From contig DYLK01000002.1 in the NCBI GenBank assembly GCA_020722065.1, forward strand, positions 128,714 through 167,115: DNA of 38,402 nucleotides, in the 5' to 3' direction. The DNA comes from Melioribacter roseus (GTDB lineage Bacteria > Bacteroidota > Ignavibacteria > Ignavibacteriales > Melioribacteraceae). The notes below the pieces were generated by a model that saw only the letters and a program-made list of their open reading frames with translations, did no database searches and had not been told where the DNA came from. Position numbers and translations under genes: made by a program. Positions 25,525 to 29,573 of this stretch are shown here, in pieces (the stretch's first letter is position 1; the number at the start of each line of letters is the position of its first letter).

Positions 25525-26805
25525 TTAGACATATTCACCATTTATGTACAATTTAGAATTATTAAAAATTCCGATTGCTTTTCCAGTTAGAAGTTTTTTA
25601 TCAAACGGAGAATTTTTTGATTTTGATTTTGATTGAACCAAATTTACAGCCCAAACTTTATCTGGAATTAGAAAAGTAAATTCTGCTTTGTTACCAACTT
25701 TAATCTGTGGAATTTCAATATTTAGAATTTGTCTTGGATTTATTGCAAATTTTTGAATTATTTGTTCAATGCTCAATTTCTTTTTATTATAAAGTTCGGA
25801 AAGTGCAAGTCCAACTTCCGTTTCCAAACCGATAATTCCATTTGGAGCTTGAACAAATTCAACTTCTTTATCTTCTTGCGTATGTGGTGCGTGGTCGCTT
25901 GCAATAACATCAATTGTACCATCAACCAAACCTTCTATAATTGCTTCAACATCTTCGTCGGTTCGTAATGGCGGGTTCATTTTATAATTTGTATCGTAAC
26001 TTCTTAAACTATTTTCAGTTAATGAAAAATGATGTGGAGTTACTTCTGCCGTTACATTTAAGCCTTTTGCTTTTGCTTTTCTCACTAAATCGACTGAATT
26101 TTTTGTGCTGATATGTGCAATATGTAATTTACCTTGTGTGTATTCAGCAAGGAGAATATCGCGTGCTATTGTCAATTCTTCAGCAACAGAAGGAATTGGT
26201 GGTAATCCTAATTCAGTTGAAATTGTCCCTTCATTAATAGAACCGCCAGCTAATGATTCATCTTCGCAATGTTCAATTAAAGGTGCTCCAATAGGTTTTA
26301 AGTATTCTAATGCTATTTTTACCATGTTTGCAGTTTTTACTGCTACTCCATCATCAGAAAAGGCAACTGCCCCAGATTCATGCATTTCATAAATTGGAGA
26401 TAAACTTTCTCCTTTTCGTCCTTTTGTAACAGCACCAATAGGAAAAACATTTACGATATGATTTTCAGATTTTTTTATAATTGATTCAACAACTTCCGAA
26501 GTATCAATTGTGGGATTAGTGTTCGGCATACAAGCAATTGCAGTAAATCCACCTTCGGCAGCTGCATCTGAGCCAGTTTTTATAGTTTCAGCTTGTTCGT
26601 AACCAGGTTCGCGTAAATGTACGTGCATATCAAAAAATCCAAGAGTACAAATTGTTTTATCAAATTCAATTACTTTGACATCTTCTGTGGGAATTATATT
26701 TTCTGCAATTTTTTTGATAATTCCATTTTCAATTAATATGTCTGAAATTTGATTGATATGCAAAGTCGGGTCAATAATTTGAAGATTTTTCAATAAATAT
26801 TTCAT
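25525..26805 (-). CDS. pyrC: Dihydroorotase (class I type)
   Basis: 426 residues. It closes carbamoyl aspartate to dihydroorotate, the third step of UMP synthesis. Metal-binding His61 and His63 are in FFDMHVHLREPGYEQ; the following KTGSDAAAEGGFTAIACMPNT, LIEHCED, HIAHISTKNS and catalytic Asp304 in VIASDHAPHTQED are all present, so the enzyme should be active. The DMHVHLREPG pattern is that of the class I group (PyrC of Bacillus, not E. coli). AAGGAC precedes the ATG. It is last in pyrR-pyrB-pyrC, 9 bp after pyrB. Weak inverted repeats follow (see rejected items). Confidence 0.94.
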   Translation of the reverse strand: MKYLLKNLQIIDPTLHINQISDILIENGIIKKIAENIIPTEDVKVIEFDKTICTLGFFDMHVHLREPGYEQAETIKTGSDAAAEGGFTAIACMPNTNPTIDTSEVVESIIKKSENHIVNVFPIGAVTKGRKGESLSPIYEMHESGAVAFSDDGVAVKTANMVKIALEYLKPIGAPLIEHCEDESLAGGSINEGTISTELGLPPIPSVAEELTIARDILLAEYTQGKLHIAHISTKNSVDLVRKAKAKGLNVTAEVTPHHFSLTENSLRSYDTNYKMNPPLRTDEDVEAIIEGLVDGTIDVIASDHAPHTQEDKEVEFVQAPNGIIGLETEVGLALSELYNKKKLSIEQIIQKFAINPRQILNIEIPQIKVGNKAEFTFLIPDKVWAVNLVQSKSKSKNSPFDKKLLTGKAIGIFNNSKLYINGEYV

Positions 26806-26814
26806 AATTCGTCC

Positions 26815-27738
26815 TTAATTTGGAAGAGTTCCGAGTAAATAAAGAATTGCCATTCGGATAGCAACTCCGTTTGTAACTTGTTCGAGAATAAGTTGATAAG
26901 GTCCATCAGCAACTTCTGAAGTAATTTCAACACCACGATTTATTGGACCTGGATGCAAGATAACTATTTCAGGATTATATTTTTCCAAACGTTCGCGAGT
27001 TATTCCAAAATACTTGTGATATTCGTTAACATTTGGAATTGCACCACCAGCTTCTCTTTCTAATTGAATTCGAAGAACATTGAGTACGTCATTTTCACGA
27101 ATTGCATCTTCAACTTTTTGGTAGATTTTTACACCTAATTTTTCAATATTTCTTGGAATCATAGTTGCTGGTCCGCAAACTGAAACATTAGCCCCAAGTG
27201 TTTGTAATCCAAAAATATTAGATAACGCAACTCGGCTATGTGAAACATCGCCAACAATACAAACATTTTTACCAGAAAGTTTACCCAATTTTTCTTCTAT
27301 CGAGAAAAAATCGAGTAATGCCTGAGTTGGATGTTCATGTCTCCCATCTCCAGCATTTATAATGTTTGCATTAGAAATTCTTGTTAAAAAATCGGGAACA
27401 CCTGCTGATTGATGGCGAACAACAATCATATCTATTTTCATTGCTTCAATATTTTTCACAGTGTCTTTAAAAGTTTCCCCTTTTTTTGTGCTACTTGTAG
27501 ATATAGAAAAGTTAATTGTATCAGCAGATAATCTTTTTTGTGCTAATTCGAATGAAATTCTGGTTCGAGTAGAATTTTCAAAAAATAGATTTACAATTGT
27601 TTTTCCAGTTAAAGTAGGAACTTTTTTAATTGGACGTTCAAGAACTTCGCGAAAAGTTTTTGCTGTATCAATAATTAATTCTATATCTTCACGAGGTGTA
27701 TTTCTTAATCCTAATAAATGTTTACTTGATAACGACAT
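26815..27738 (-). CDS. pyrB: Aspartate carbamoyltransferase catalytic chain
   Basis: 307 residues from the ATG at 27738, preceded by CTGGAG at a good distance; the TTG seven codons earlier would overlap pyrR and is less likely. It condenses carbamoyl phosphate and aspartate, the first committed step of pyrimidine synthesis. The carbamoyl-phosphate loop FFENSTRTRISFE (STRTR 56-60), HPTQALLDFFSIEEKLG, VCIVGDVSHSRVA and the aspartate-site HPGPINRGVEI are all in place. No regulatory chain pyrI follows, as usual when PyrR is present. It starts 1 bp after the pyrR stop. Confidence 0.95.
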   Translation of the reverse strand: MSLSSKHLLGLRNTPREDIELIIDTAKTFREVLERPIKKVPTLTGKTIVNLFFENSTRTRISFELAQKRLSADTINFSISTSSTKKGETFKDTVKNIEAMKIDMIVVRHQSAGVPDFLTRISNANIINAGDGRHEHPTQALLDFFSIEEKLGKLSGKNVCIVGDVSHSRVALSNIFGLQTLGANVSVCGPATMIPRNIEKLGVKIYQKVEDAIRENDVLNVLRIQLEREAGGAIPNVNEYHKYFGITRERLEKYNPEIVILHPGPINRGVEITSEVADGPYQLILEQVTNGVAIRMAILYLLGTLPN

Positions 27739-27739
27739 A

Positions 27740-28288
27740 TTATTCTCCAGAACTATCAATTAAATAAACAGCATCTTCACCATCAACTTCAAGCAATTTT
27801 ACTTTTACTTCTTCATTTATGGAAGTTGGGATGTTTTTCCCTACATAGTTTGCTTTAATTGGCATTTGCCGATGACCTCGATCAACTAAAATACAAAGTT
27901 GAATTGATTGTGGTCTTCCTAAATCCATAATTGCATCGAGAGCCGCACGAACAGTTCGTCCCGTATAAAGCACATCATCAATAAGAATTATGTCTTTATC
28001 ATTTATATCAAAAGTGATATTTGTAACGGAAACTTTAGGTTGTTTGAGTCTATTTCTGAAATCATCGCGATAAAGAGTAATATCGAGAACTCCAAGTTTC
28101 AAATTTGAGTTGTTTTCAATTTCTGAAATTTTAGAATGAATTCTGCGGGCAATAAATTCTCCACGTGTTCGCATTCCGATAAGTACCAGATTTTCAGAAC
28201 CTTTATTCTTTTCAATAATTTCATGTGCAAGTCGTGTTATCGTTCTTTCCAGACTTGCTTGATCGATAATTAATGCTTTTATTTTCAT
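27740..28288 (-). CDS. pyrR: PyrR pyrimidine operon regulator / uracil phosphoribosyltransferase
   Basis: 182 residues from the ATG at 28288 (MKIKALIIDQ); a TTG five codons earlier would place the start in the leader hairpin. The PRPP motif is LIDDVLYTGRTVRAALDA (DDVLYTGRT 104-112), with the PyrR-specific LVLIGMRTRGEFIARR and LCILVDRGHRQMPI. PyrR makes UMP from uracil and, in Bacillus, binds leader RNA to end transcription when UMP/UTP is high. It is the first gene of pyrR-pyrB-pyrC and follows a terminator-like hairpin whose 3' arm (GAGG) is also its ribosome binding site. Confidence 0.94.
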   Translation of the reverse strand: MKIKALIIDQASLERTITRLAHEIIEKNKGSENLVLIGMRTRGEFIARRIHSKISEIENNSNLKLGVLDITLYRDDFRNRLKQPKVSVTNITFDINDKDIILIDDVLYTGRTVRAALDAIMDLGRPQSIQLCILVDRGHRQMPIKANYVGKNIPTSINEEVKVKLLEVDGEDAVYLIDSSGE

Positions 28289-28325
28289 AAAAAAAAACCT
28301 CAAGAAATTTTTACTTTTCTTGAGG
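28289..28325 (-). promoter_or_regulatory. Attenuator-like hairpin with T9 run in front of pyrR
   Basis: Minus strand: CCTCAAGAAA (28316-28325), 8-nt loop, TTTCTTGAGG (28298-28307), then nine T and the pyrR ATG. The stem is a perfect 10 bp. It can act as an intrinsic terminator, and because its 3' arm holds the GAGG site for pyrR it can also hide that site. The 18-codon leader ORF runs right through it and stops within the 3' arm. Regulation by UTP, by PyrR or by both is inference. Confidence 0.65.
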
Positions 28326-28356
28326 ATCTCCTAAAATATTTTACAAATTCTTTCAT
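28300..28356 (-). CDS. Putative pyr leader peptide, 18 residues
   Basis: An ATG at 28356 with a strong AAGGAG site 4 nt upstream gives MKEFVKYFRRSSRKVKIS and then TGA at 28300-28302, 11 nt before the pyrR ATG. Its last 8 or so codons lie inside the hairpin at 28298-28325, so a ribosome finishing it would hold the hairpin open. This is the logic of E. coli pyrL-pyrBI attenuation. The peptide sequence itself matches nothing I know. Too short for ordinary gene callers; its use as a leader is inferred from position. Confidence 0.5.
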   Translation of the reverse strand: MKEFVKYFRRSSRKVKIS

Positions 28357-28401
28357 TTTCTCCTTTTTTATCACGCGGATAAAGTTAAAGGTAATTAAAA
28401 A

Positions 28402-28424
28402 AAAAGGTGCTTTCAGCACCTTTT
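28402..28424 (-). terminator. Intrinsic terminator after the OmpA-family gene
   Basis: A perfect 10-bp stem (AAAAGGTGCT with AGCACCTTTT), 3-nt loop, then TTTTTAATT on the minus strand, starting 7 bp past the stop codon at 28431. It isolates the OmpA gene from the pyr operon, whose promoter must then lie between here and 28365; no clear box is visible (TACCTTTA near 28388 is the nearest). Confidence 0.85.
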
Positions 28425-28430
28425 CAAAAT

Positions 28431-29573
28431 TTATTTGACAATAAATTCAATTCTTCTATTTAATGCTCTGCCTTCAGCAGTTTTGTTATCAGCAATTGGT
28501 TTTTCTTCTCCACAACCTTCGGTCGTAATTCTTGTACTTGCAACACCACGTGCTACTAAATAATTTTTAACAACATCAGCACGTTTTTGTGATAATTCTT
28601 TATTGTATTTAGCTGAACCAATATCATCAGTATAACCTTTTACAACTACATTCATTTCAGGTTTTTCGATTAAAGTTCTTGCAGCAAAGAAAAGCACTGG
28701 ATAAGATTCTGCAGTTAATTCTGAACTATTGAATTCAAAATTAACGCCTGATAGATATACAGTTTTTTCTGTACCTGTACTAGGAGCCATTTCTTTGTGA
28801 TGTGCATCAATTACTTCTGCTAAAGCTTCTTTTACTTGGTCTTTATTAATTCCAACATTAGCTGTGTTTTTCTTAACTATATTTTCAATTCTTTCATAAT
28901 CAACTGGGTCGTTATTTACACCTTCGTATAATTCACATAATCTTGATTTTTCACCTTTTTCATAAGTATAGGTTAGTCCCAATTTGAAAGTCATATAGCT
29001 ATCATCTGGGGTACCCAAAAAACCACCACCGTTTGTTCCATAATTACCATCAGCCCAAGAAAGTGGTAACGAATTATAAACAAATTCAGTATTTAATTTC
29101 CAGTCATCATCTAATTTATAGGCAAAGCCCATACCAACATTAAATTGATAATCTAAGAAATAATCATCTTTTGTATTTGCAGCATCATCAAGCATACCAT
29201 AAGCAACGCCAAGACCAATTATTGAGTATGGAGATAAAGTTTCACAAGGAATAAAGTTATATAAGTATTCAAAATCAACACCTAAAAGATTTGTTCTTGT
29301 TTTAGTCCAAGGATCAGTTCCCGTATTTTTATATTCAATACTATTAAAATTTAAGGTTCCTCTCCATGAAGAATGTTCTGACAATTGATTTGTTAACCCA
29401 GCATATAATCCGAAATTGATATTTCCAGATATTCCAGTGTTTTGGCTTGTTGCTCTAGGATAGTTAATTCCAAAATTGAACCCCCAACTATCTTTATATA
29501 GATTTGATTGTGCTTGGGTGATGTTCAATGTTAGAAAAGAAACAAGTGCCACTAACGTAAGTAGTCTTTTCAT
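28431..29573 (-). CDS. OmpA-family outer-membrane protein, barrel plus peptidoglycan-binding domain
   Basis: 380 residues. Signal peptide MKRLLTLVALVSFLTLNITQAQ; an eight-strand-type barrel domain (about 30-210, many aromatic and Gly residues, for example FGINYPRATSQN and MGFAYKLDDDWKLNTEF); a linker with basic residues; and an OmpA C-terminal domain (about 265-380) with VKGYTDDIGSAKYNKELSQK and RALNRRIEFIVK, which carry the Asp and Arg that bind diaminopimelate in peptidoglycan. It should tie the outer membrane to the wall. It has a strong own promoter, a GGAG site and a terminator, so it is probably a single, highly expressed gene. Confidence 0.93.
   Translation of the reverse strand: MKRLLTLVALVSFLTLNITQAQSNLYKDSWGFNFGINYPRATSQNTGISGNINFGLYAGLTNQLSEHSSWRGTLNFNSIEYKNTGTDPWTKTRTNLLGVDFEYLYNFIPCETLSPYSIIGLGVAYGMLDDAANTKDDYFLDYQFNVGMGFAYKLDDDWKLNTEFVYNSLPLSWADGNYGTNGGGFLGTPDDSYMTFKLGLTYTYEKGEKSRLCELYEGVNNDPVDYERIENIVKKNTANVGINKDQVKEALAEVIDAHHKEMAPSTGTEKTVYLSGVNFEFNSSELTAESYPVLFFAARTLIEKPEMNVVVKGYTDDIGSAKYNKELSQKRADVVKNYLVARGVASTRITTEGCGEEKPIADNKTAEGRALNRRIEFIVK

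Follow-up and report, generated by a model that had tools for sequence, protein, structure and literature searches.

The pyrR-pyrB-pyrC operon of Melioribacter roseus (class Ignavibacteria), analyzed here in a 38,402-nucleotide (nt) stretch of contig DYLK01000002.1 (hereafter, the window), is preceded by a leader that combines a PyrR-type stem-loop (the PyrR box), a short open reading frame (ORF) and a terminator hairpin, and the sequence of this leader indicates that it is probably a PyrR-gated, translation-coupled attenuator. All of these parts are present in the window and conserved in relatives, where both the box and the terminator stems covary and the leader frame is kept open. In the mechanism that we infer, PyrR charged with uridine monophosphate (UMP) would bind the stem-loop at 28391-28362 and keep its lower stem closed, which would hide the leader Shine-Dalgarno sequence (AAGG) and crowd the leader ATG. 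With the leader untranslated, the hairpin at 28325-28298 would form, RNA polymerase would halt in the nine-T tract (T9) and the GAGG ahead of pyrR would also be sequestered. At low UMP, PyrR would leave, and a ribosome would enter the leader, meet the hairpin and hold it open, letting transcription pass; finishing 14 nt before the pyrR start codon, this ribosome may also aid pyrR initiation.

Coordinates are positions in the window, and the leader and the pyr genes are all read on the minus strand. The leader and its operon comprise the following features:

28362-28391, minus strand: PyrR-box stem-loop, CCUUUAACUUUAUCC-loop-GAUAAAAAAGG (Rfam model RF00515, 34.6 bits; class model R1, described below, 62.4 bits; covariation in relatives)
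28360-28365, minus strand: AAGGAG, leader ORF Shine-Dalgarno sequence, which overlaps the PyrR-box 3' strand (sequence)
28300-28356, minus strand: 18-codon leader ORF, MKEFVKYFRRSSRKVKIS, with its stop codon TGA (28302-28300) within the 3' arm of the terminator (sequence, frame statistics)
28298-28325, minus strand: terminator hairpin with a perfect 10-base-pair stem and an 8-nt loop (sequence, terminator scan)
28289-28297, minus strand: T9 tract of the terminator, immediately followed by the pyrR ATG (28288) (sequence, terminator scan)
27740-28288, minus strand: pyrR, bifunctional regulator/uracil phosphoribosyltransferase, 182 amino acids (NCBIfam NF003549, 238.6 bits, cut-off 138)
26815-27738, minus strand: pyrB, aspartate carbamoyltransferase (NCBIfam NF002032, 402.1 bits, cut-off 263)
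25525-26805, minus strand: pyrC-like dihydroorotase (NCBIfam TIGR00857, 410.3 bits, cut-off 279)

The lower stem of the PyrR box pairs CCUU with AAGG and its upper stem UUUAUC with GAUAAA, so that the leader Shine-Dalgarno sequence is carried on the 3' strand of the element (CCUUUAACUUUAUCCGCGUGAUAAAAAAGG at 28391-28362, just 5' of AAGGAG). The leader ORF starts at the ATG at 28356-28354, and because its stop codon lies in the 3' arm of the terminator (5' arm CCTCAAGAAA, 28325-28316; 3' arm TTTCTTGAGG, 28307-28298), a ribosome terminating there covers the hairpin. The same arm contains a GAGG that is likely the pyrR Shine-Dalgarno sequence, through which the hairpin can also silence pyrR translation. 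The original prediction, an earlier reading of this DNA from its letters, had described the AAGGAG, the 18-codon ORF, the perfect hairpin, the nine T and the pyrR ATG exactly to the base, as well as the double use of the 3' arm; its proposal that the hairpin could act on transcription and on the pyrR translation start at once is also supported. Shine-Dalgarno-like 4-mers precede 15 of the 27 ATG-started ORFs of at least 150 codons in the window, and a search of the same assembly for the 3' end of the 16S ribosomal RNA did not find it.

A terminator scan of 28150-28600 returned two sites (shuffle mean 0.3, standard deviation [sd] 0.5), corresponding to the leader hairpin and to the terminator ending the upstream gene. 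Folding of the whole leader was not significant (z -1.27, with 27 of 200 shuffles equally good), and single-sequence folding was therefore not used as evidence. In the operon itself pyrR comes first, pyrB and pyrC are separated by 9 nt with no gene between them, and the pyrR product matches the Protein Data Bank entries 1a3c (E 1.1e-58) and 1ufr (E 1.8e-58).

The PyrR box and leader frame in the Ignavibacteria

The Rfam PyrR model (RF00515) aligned with the window at 28395-28289 (minus strand) in a permissive scan of 201 bases, with an E value of 0.0017 and a score of 34.6 bits against a gathering score of 54, and a scan of the window at the gathering level gave no match. Applied to the loci of 19 relatives, the same model yielded seven matches at E <= 0.1, the best of 51.2 bits and none above the cut-off, an annotation gap in which these sub-cut-off scores would explain the silence of routine annotation. 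Across the window's own genome it produced 13 weak matches (E 0.4 or more), the pyr leader not among them, and in control genomes it matched at E <= 10 in 9 of 14, above the cut-off in two. Given that RF00515 proved both weak and unspecific, we built a class-specific covariance model, R1, from an alignment of 36 relatives, one per genus, that excluded the window and the near-identical L003; the 36 were chosen by hand from 46 one-per-genus sequences, dropping L021, L112, L114, L121, L137, L140, L141, L143, L153 and L161.

R1 matches the window at 28391-28291 (minus strand) with an E value of 6.3e-9. Over the whole genome the leader is its sole clear match (E 3.9e-7; next E 0.17), and the PyrR site looks dedicated to the pyr operon. 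Among family genomes, 54 of 57 have a match at E <= 0.01 (none in G260, G394 and G407), always one per genome except for G340, which has a second, weak match (38.6 bits). The box stems and the terminator stem of the 36 aligned relatives contain 57 cells changed on both sides, compared to 18.8 in shuffles, and 95.7% of their cells are paired, compared to 46-55% with slid partners.

The box is similar to the Bacillus PyrR-binding stem-loop, whose loop consensus is ARUCCAGAGAGGYU (PMC7430163); the window reads UAUCCGCGUGAUA and the relatives mostly UAUCCnGnGAGAUA. A like element, typically CCUUUAAnUUUAUCCnGnGAGAUAAnAAGG, lies 5' of pyrR in 28 of the 29 relatives L003-L031, that of L014 being degenerate. 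The original prediction had reported no PyrR binding-loop consensus in the leader, and on this point it was mistaken: the PyrR-type stem-loop sits at 28391-28362, outside the interval that it had given.

PyrR was identified (E <= 1e-30) in 212 of 391 class genomes; the remaining 179 present no match at this threshold. From the 150 matches listed for these 212 genomes we collected 142 upstream regions (the window's own, L003-L031 and L112-L223), which are the higher-scoring ones rather than a random draw; G344, G347, G335, G287, G212, G258, G118 and G092 were left out. A PyrR-box pattern, called strictly in 108 regions and with looser patterns in 23, the window among the latter, was found in 131 of the 142 regions, a count that includes the degenerate L014 element and that covers 82 of the 87 genera of the set. 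Eleven regions had no box pattern, L178 being cut by a contig end. All five members of genus g79 (L181, L194, L197, L199 and L215) keep pyrR with no box pattern upstream.

Behind the box, 123 of 131 regions present a terminator-like hairpin, called without an energy cut-off (two are weaker than -7 kcal/mol, the weakest -3.9). An interior loop of at least 2x2 nt, often of the form CCUC-GC-GAC/GUC-AA-GAGG, interrupts the middle of the stem in 68 of these 123 pyr leader hairpins, compared to 9 of 54 other terminator-like hairpins in the relatives' loci; the perfect hairpin of the window is an exception.

The spacer between box and hairpin arm does not exceed 60 nt in 110 of the 123 leaders, and the 13 with longer spacers were excluded. 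A start codon follows within 20 nt of the box in 108 of the 110 (92 ATG, 16 GTG or TTG), and 92 of the 110 have an ATG no more than 17 nt from AAGG, compared to 38.7 (sd 4.6) in shuffles. Of the 108 ORFs, 52 have their first in-frame stop past the hairpin and 26 within it; in 28 the stop precedes the hairpin by at most 18 nt, and only two stop earlier. Up to a point 18 nt short of the arm, no stop interrupts the leader frame in 84 of the 86 testable leaders, compared to 47 and 50 for the other two frames and to 55.4 (sd 4.2, maximum 66) in dinucleotide shuffles. The excess persists with one leader per genus (50 of 51; shuffles 33.3, sd 3.1, maximum 41), with one per genus and ATG starts only (44 of 45; shuffles 29.1, sd 2.9), and when the frame is required to be open up to the arm base (83 of 108; shuffles 48.7, sd 5.0). 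The leader peptides are unalike between genera and only the open frame is kept, so that selection seems to act on translation and not on the peptide. The combination of a translated leader with PyrR that the original prediction had put forward is thus supported by a conserved ORF and hairpin with compensating changes, just as it had expected of related Ignavibacteria.

An earlier frame control based on early stops (90 of 108 in frame +1, 38 of 108 in frame +2) was discarded as unfair to frame +1, in which ATGA is an instant stop, and was replaced by segments beginning after the start codon. Stops that overlap the pyrR ATG occur in many relatives; we did not interpret them as selected, since the T tract contains no stop and an ORF that has crossed it is likely to end at that point in any case. 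In three of the 108 leaders (L011, L019 and L180) the ORF has no stop before or in the part of pyrR examined, and that of L011 is in frame with pyrR.

A purely translational device, in which the hairpin would only hide the pyrR GAGG and a leader ribosome would open it, with no termination involved, agrees with the position of GAGG, which in the window, as in many relatives, is part of the 3' arm and immediately precedes pyrR. We nonetheless give it only a slim chance, because T9 immediately follows the stem, and because the hairpin and T tract are kept in L169, L190 and L192, where similarity puts the pyrR start tens of bases downstream.

Other phyla and known PyrR systems

In other groups we analyzed the 30 best PyrR loci of each search, from 127, 61, 55 and 77 matching genomes. 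Box and hairpin occur together in 26 of 30 loci in the Omnitrophota, 27 of 30 in the Nitrospinota and 9 of 30 in the Zixibacteria (the box in 19). An ATG soon past the box is present in 25 of these 26 (shuffles 13.3), 27 of 27 (shuffles 11.2) and 9 of 9 (shuffles 3.2) loci, respectively. The resulting ORFs end no earlier than 18 nt before the hairpin in 24 of 25 Omnitrophota, 26 of 27 Nitrospinota and 9 of 9 Zixibacteria loci. Over the three groups, the ATG lies 4-12 nt past AAGG, a normal Shine-Dalgarno distance, in 55 of 61 loci. In contrast, the Bacilli control, with box and hairpin in 29 of 30 loci, has the ATG in 10 of 29, no excess over shuffles (12.4), and its median spacer is 67 versus 37. 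In a smaller set, which shares part of its loci with this one and was not compared with shuffles, 13 of the 15 non-Firmicutes loci that have both box and hairpin carry an ATG, as do 14 of 28 such Firmicutes loci. Their ORFs end no earlier than 18 nt before the hairpin in 13 of 13 and 12 of 14, respectively; short-spacer Firmicutes ORFs thus often reach the hairpin too.

These distributions incline us, with some reserve, to distinguish two PyrR architectures: the antiterminator form of the Bacilli, and a widespread, maybe older, form in the Ignavibacteria, Omnitrophota, Nitrospinota and Zixibacteria, in which the 3' strand of the box is the leader Shine-Dalgarno sequence and PyrR would admit or refuse the ribosome on a leader of no fixed sequence. 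The spread over phyla that offer few tractable strains, together with the lack of signal in the Bacilli, suggests that the antiterminator form known from textbooks may be derived.

The window shares with Bacillus subtilis attenuation, as described in PMC7430163 and PMC4347634, a PyrR family protein, an ARUCC...GAG-type box and a terminator before pyrR, and RF00515 aligns across its entire leader. The window might accordingly hold a Bacillus-type attenuator, in which the 3' half of the box would pair with the 5' arm of the terminator as an antiterminator, PyrR would prevent this pairing and the short ORF would be incidental. We regard this as quite unlikely. The duplex between the box 3' half and the terminator 5' arm is predicted at -4.2 kcal in the window, compared to medians of -6.5 in the class and -11.8 in the Firmicutes, and the median fraction of shuffles that do as well is 0.64, 0.48 and 0.26, respectively. 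It is better than 95% of shuffles in 11 of 110 class and 5 of 28 Firmicutes leaders, and the longest exact pairing is 4 nt in the window, with a class median of 4 (at least 7 in 0 of 110) and a Bacilli median of 5 (at least 7 in 4 of 29). Pairing is thus no better than in shuffles for the window and the class median, in a test whose weakness on the positive control of the Bacilli makes it only moderately sensitive and the contrast between class and Firmicutes modest. Within that sensitivity, the pairing data favor a leader that would operate without an antiterminator, and the Bacillus-type explanation leaves the conserved leader frame unaccounted for. The window further differs from B. subtilis in having a leader ORF with its Shine-Dalgarno sequence in the box and no clear antiterminator, as well as one clear site in its genome compared to three in the B. 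subtilis operon, according to the same sources.

In leader-peptide attenuators the leader itself is usually the sensor, responding to an amino acid, an antibiotic or polymerase speed. E. coli pyrBI, which senses without a protein, has a U-rich pausing tract ahead of its terminator. A device of the pyrBI type in the window, in which uridine triphosphate (UTP) would pace RNA polymerase, a close ribosome at low UTP would block the terminator and PyrR would have no role, appears very unlikely. The translated leader overlapping a terminator, with a ribosome that blocks termination, is common to both systems (PMC5021804). However, 131 of the 142 class regions have a PyrR-box pattern upstream of pyrR, the window box covers the leader ribosome site, and the spacer is A-rich rather than U-rich (A 0.56, T 0.22; families f1-f3). 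The presence of the box, as the likely sensor, thus makes a UTP-paced device improbable; in the window the PyrR box would instead gate the translation of a short leader that appears A-rich rather than a U-rich pause region. On the PyrR-gated reading, the leader sequence seems irrelevant, and the sensor would be a protein, PyrR, by which the leader ribosome site is opened or closed.

Mycobacterial PyrR acts by translational repression at a ribosome-binding site. PyrR would likewise block a ribosome-binding site here, with the difference that the blocked site is that of the leader, the pyrR site being hidden by the terminator hairpin. The closest precedent is from Thermus ZO5, for whose pyrR-pyrB-bbc-pyrC operon attenuation by a leader ribosome without an antiterminator hairpin was reportedly proposed in 1997. 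That system is said to share with the window a pyrR-first operon, PyrR, a leader peptide and a terminator, with the translating ribosome taking the place of the antiterminator hairpin. The window indeed has pyrR first, followed by pyrB and pyrC, a PyrR-type box and a leader ORF that has a ribosome site and extends into the terminator; it differs in belonging to another phylum, in having no gene between pyrB and pyrC, and in the support that the model draws from conservation, covariation and frame statistics in many genomes. In view of this reported proposal, the suggestion in the original prediction of a possible new pyr attenuator was too strong. The regulator, the box and attenuation are already known; the new part, as far as we have seen, is the overlap of the box with the leader Shine-Dalgarno sequence and its spread over four phyla, in which the single 1997 proposal becomes testable by sequence. 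The literature matches listed, as far as their available parts go (including PMC3766115, PMC4347634, PMC2965389, PMC7430163, PMC5009743, PMC5021804 and PMC4342826), contain no description of a leader peptide under PyrR control.

The window among its closest relatives

Several observations weigh against the PyrR-gated attenuator. The window box has a U at loop column 20, where the aligned relatives have A in 35 of 36 and G in one, and it scores below the Rfam gathering cut-off. The same-genus genome G260 (L014) keeps pyrR with a degenerate box, and its terminator was not found, probably reflecting a natural loss of the attenuator; G324, the sole other same-genus genome in the class PyrR search, is nearly identical to the window and hence does not provide independent evidence. 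The box patterns behind the count of 131 regions accept only loops with a GA, so that canonical loops are favored in the class. In 50 of the 92 ATG members the start codon lies only 0-3 nt past AAGG, too near for a classical Shine-Dalgarno sequence, and in such cases the start codon itself would lie right against the box stem. In the Bacilli control, ORFs after the ATG reach the hairpin in 8 of 10 loci, the other frames being open equally (6 and 8 of 10; shuffles 6.0). Finally, an exact TAnnTTTG promoter motif is absent from the 70 bases before the window box.

These observations bear on a further explanation, in which the switch is decaying in the window's genus, the terminator would cause constant partial termination and PyrR would serve mainly as a uracil phosphoribosyltransferase. 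The atypical loop base, a hairpin that is perfect where 68 of 123 leaders have an interior loop, the lack of a terminator in G260 and the lack of a promoter motif at the usual place in the window all speak for it. We consider it unlikely, because G000 and G324 retain every part, including the Shine-Dalgarno sequence, the open frame, the perfect 10-base-pair stem and T9, and R1 scores both at 62.4 bits. Still, the loop U and the degenerate box and missing terminator of G260 imply that the window may be drifting within an otherwise well-kept family. The original prediction had named the absence of the leader ORF or hairpin from close relatives as grounds for its own rejection; both are broadly conserved, but the terminator is missing from G260.

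TAnnTTTG is the -7 element of Bacteroidota promoters. Of 81 regions, 39 have it in the 48 nt preceding the box, compared to 5.3 (sd 2.1) in shuffles, most commonly starting 22 nt upstream, and this enrichment indicates that the transcript probably starts just before the box in many relatives. In the window, the place of the motif is occupied by the terminator of the neighboring gene, which accounts for its absence there:

28401-28425, minus strand: terminator of the upstream same-strand OmpA-like gene, a few bases 5' of the PyrR box (terminator scan)

A TAnnTTTG-like sequence that is one base too long, TAAATTTTG, lies far upstream of the window box, and a sigma-70 scan of 28150-28600 returned three sites, all on the plus strand and none on the strand of the leader. 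The window transcript could possibly arise by read-through or from a promoter inside the end of the upstream gene. Between 28425 and 28391 the upstream terminator abuts the PyrR box and leaves no room for the usual promoter, an arrangement similar to that observed in L012, L014, L137 and L149.
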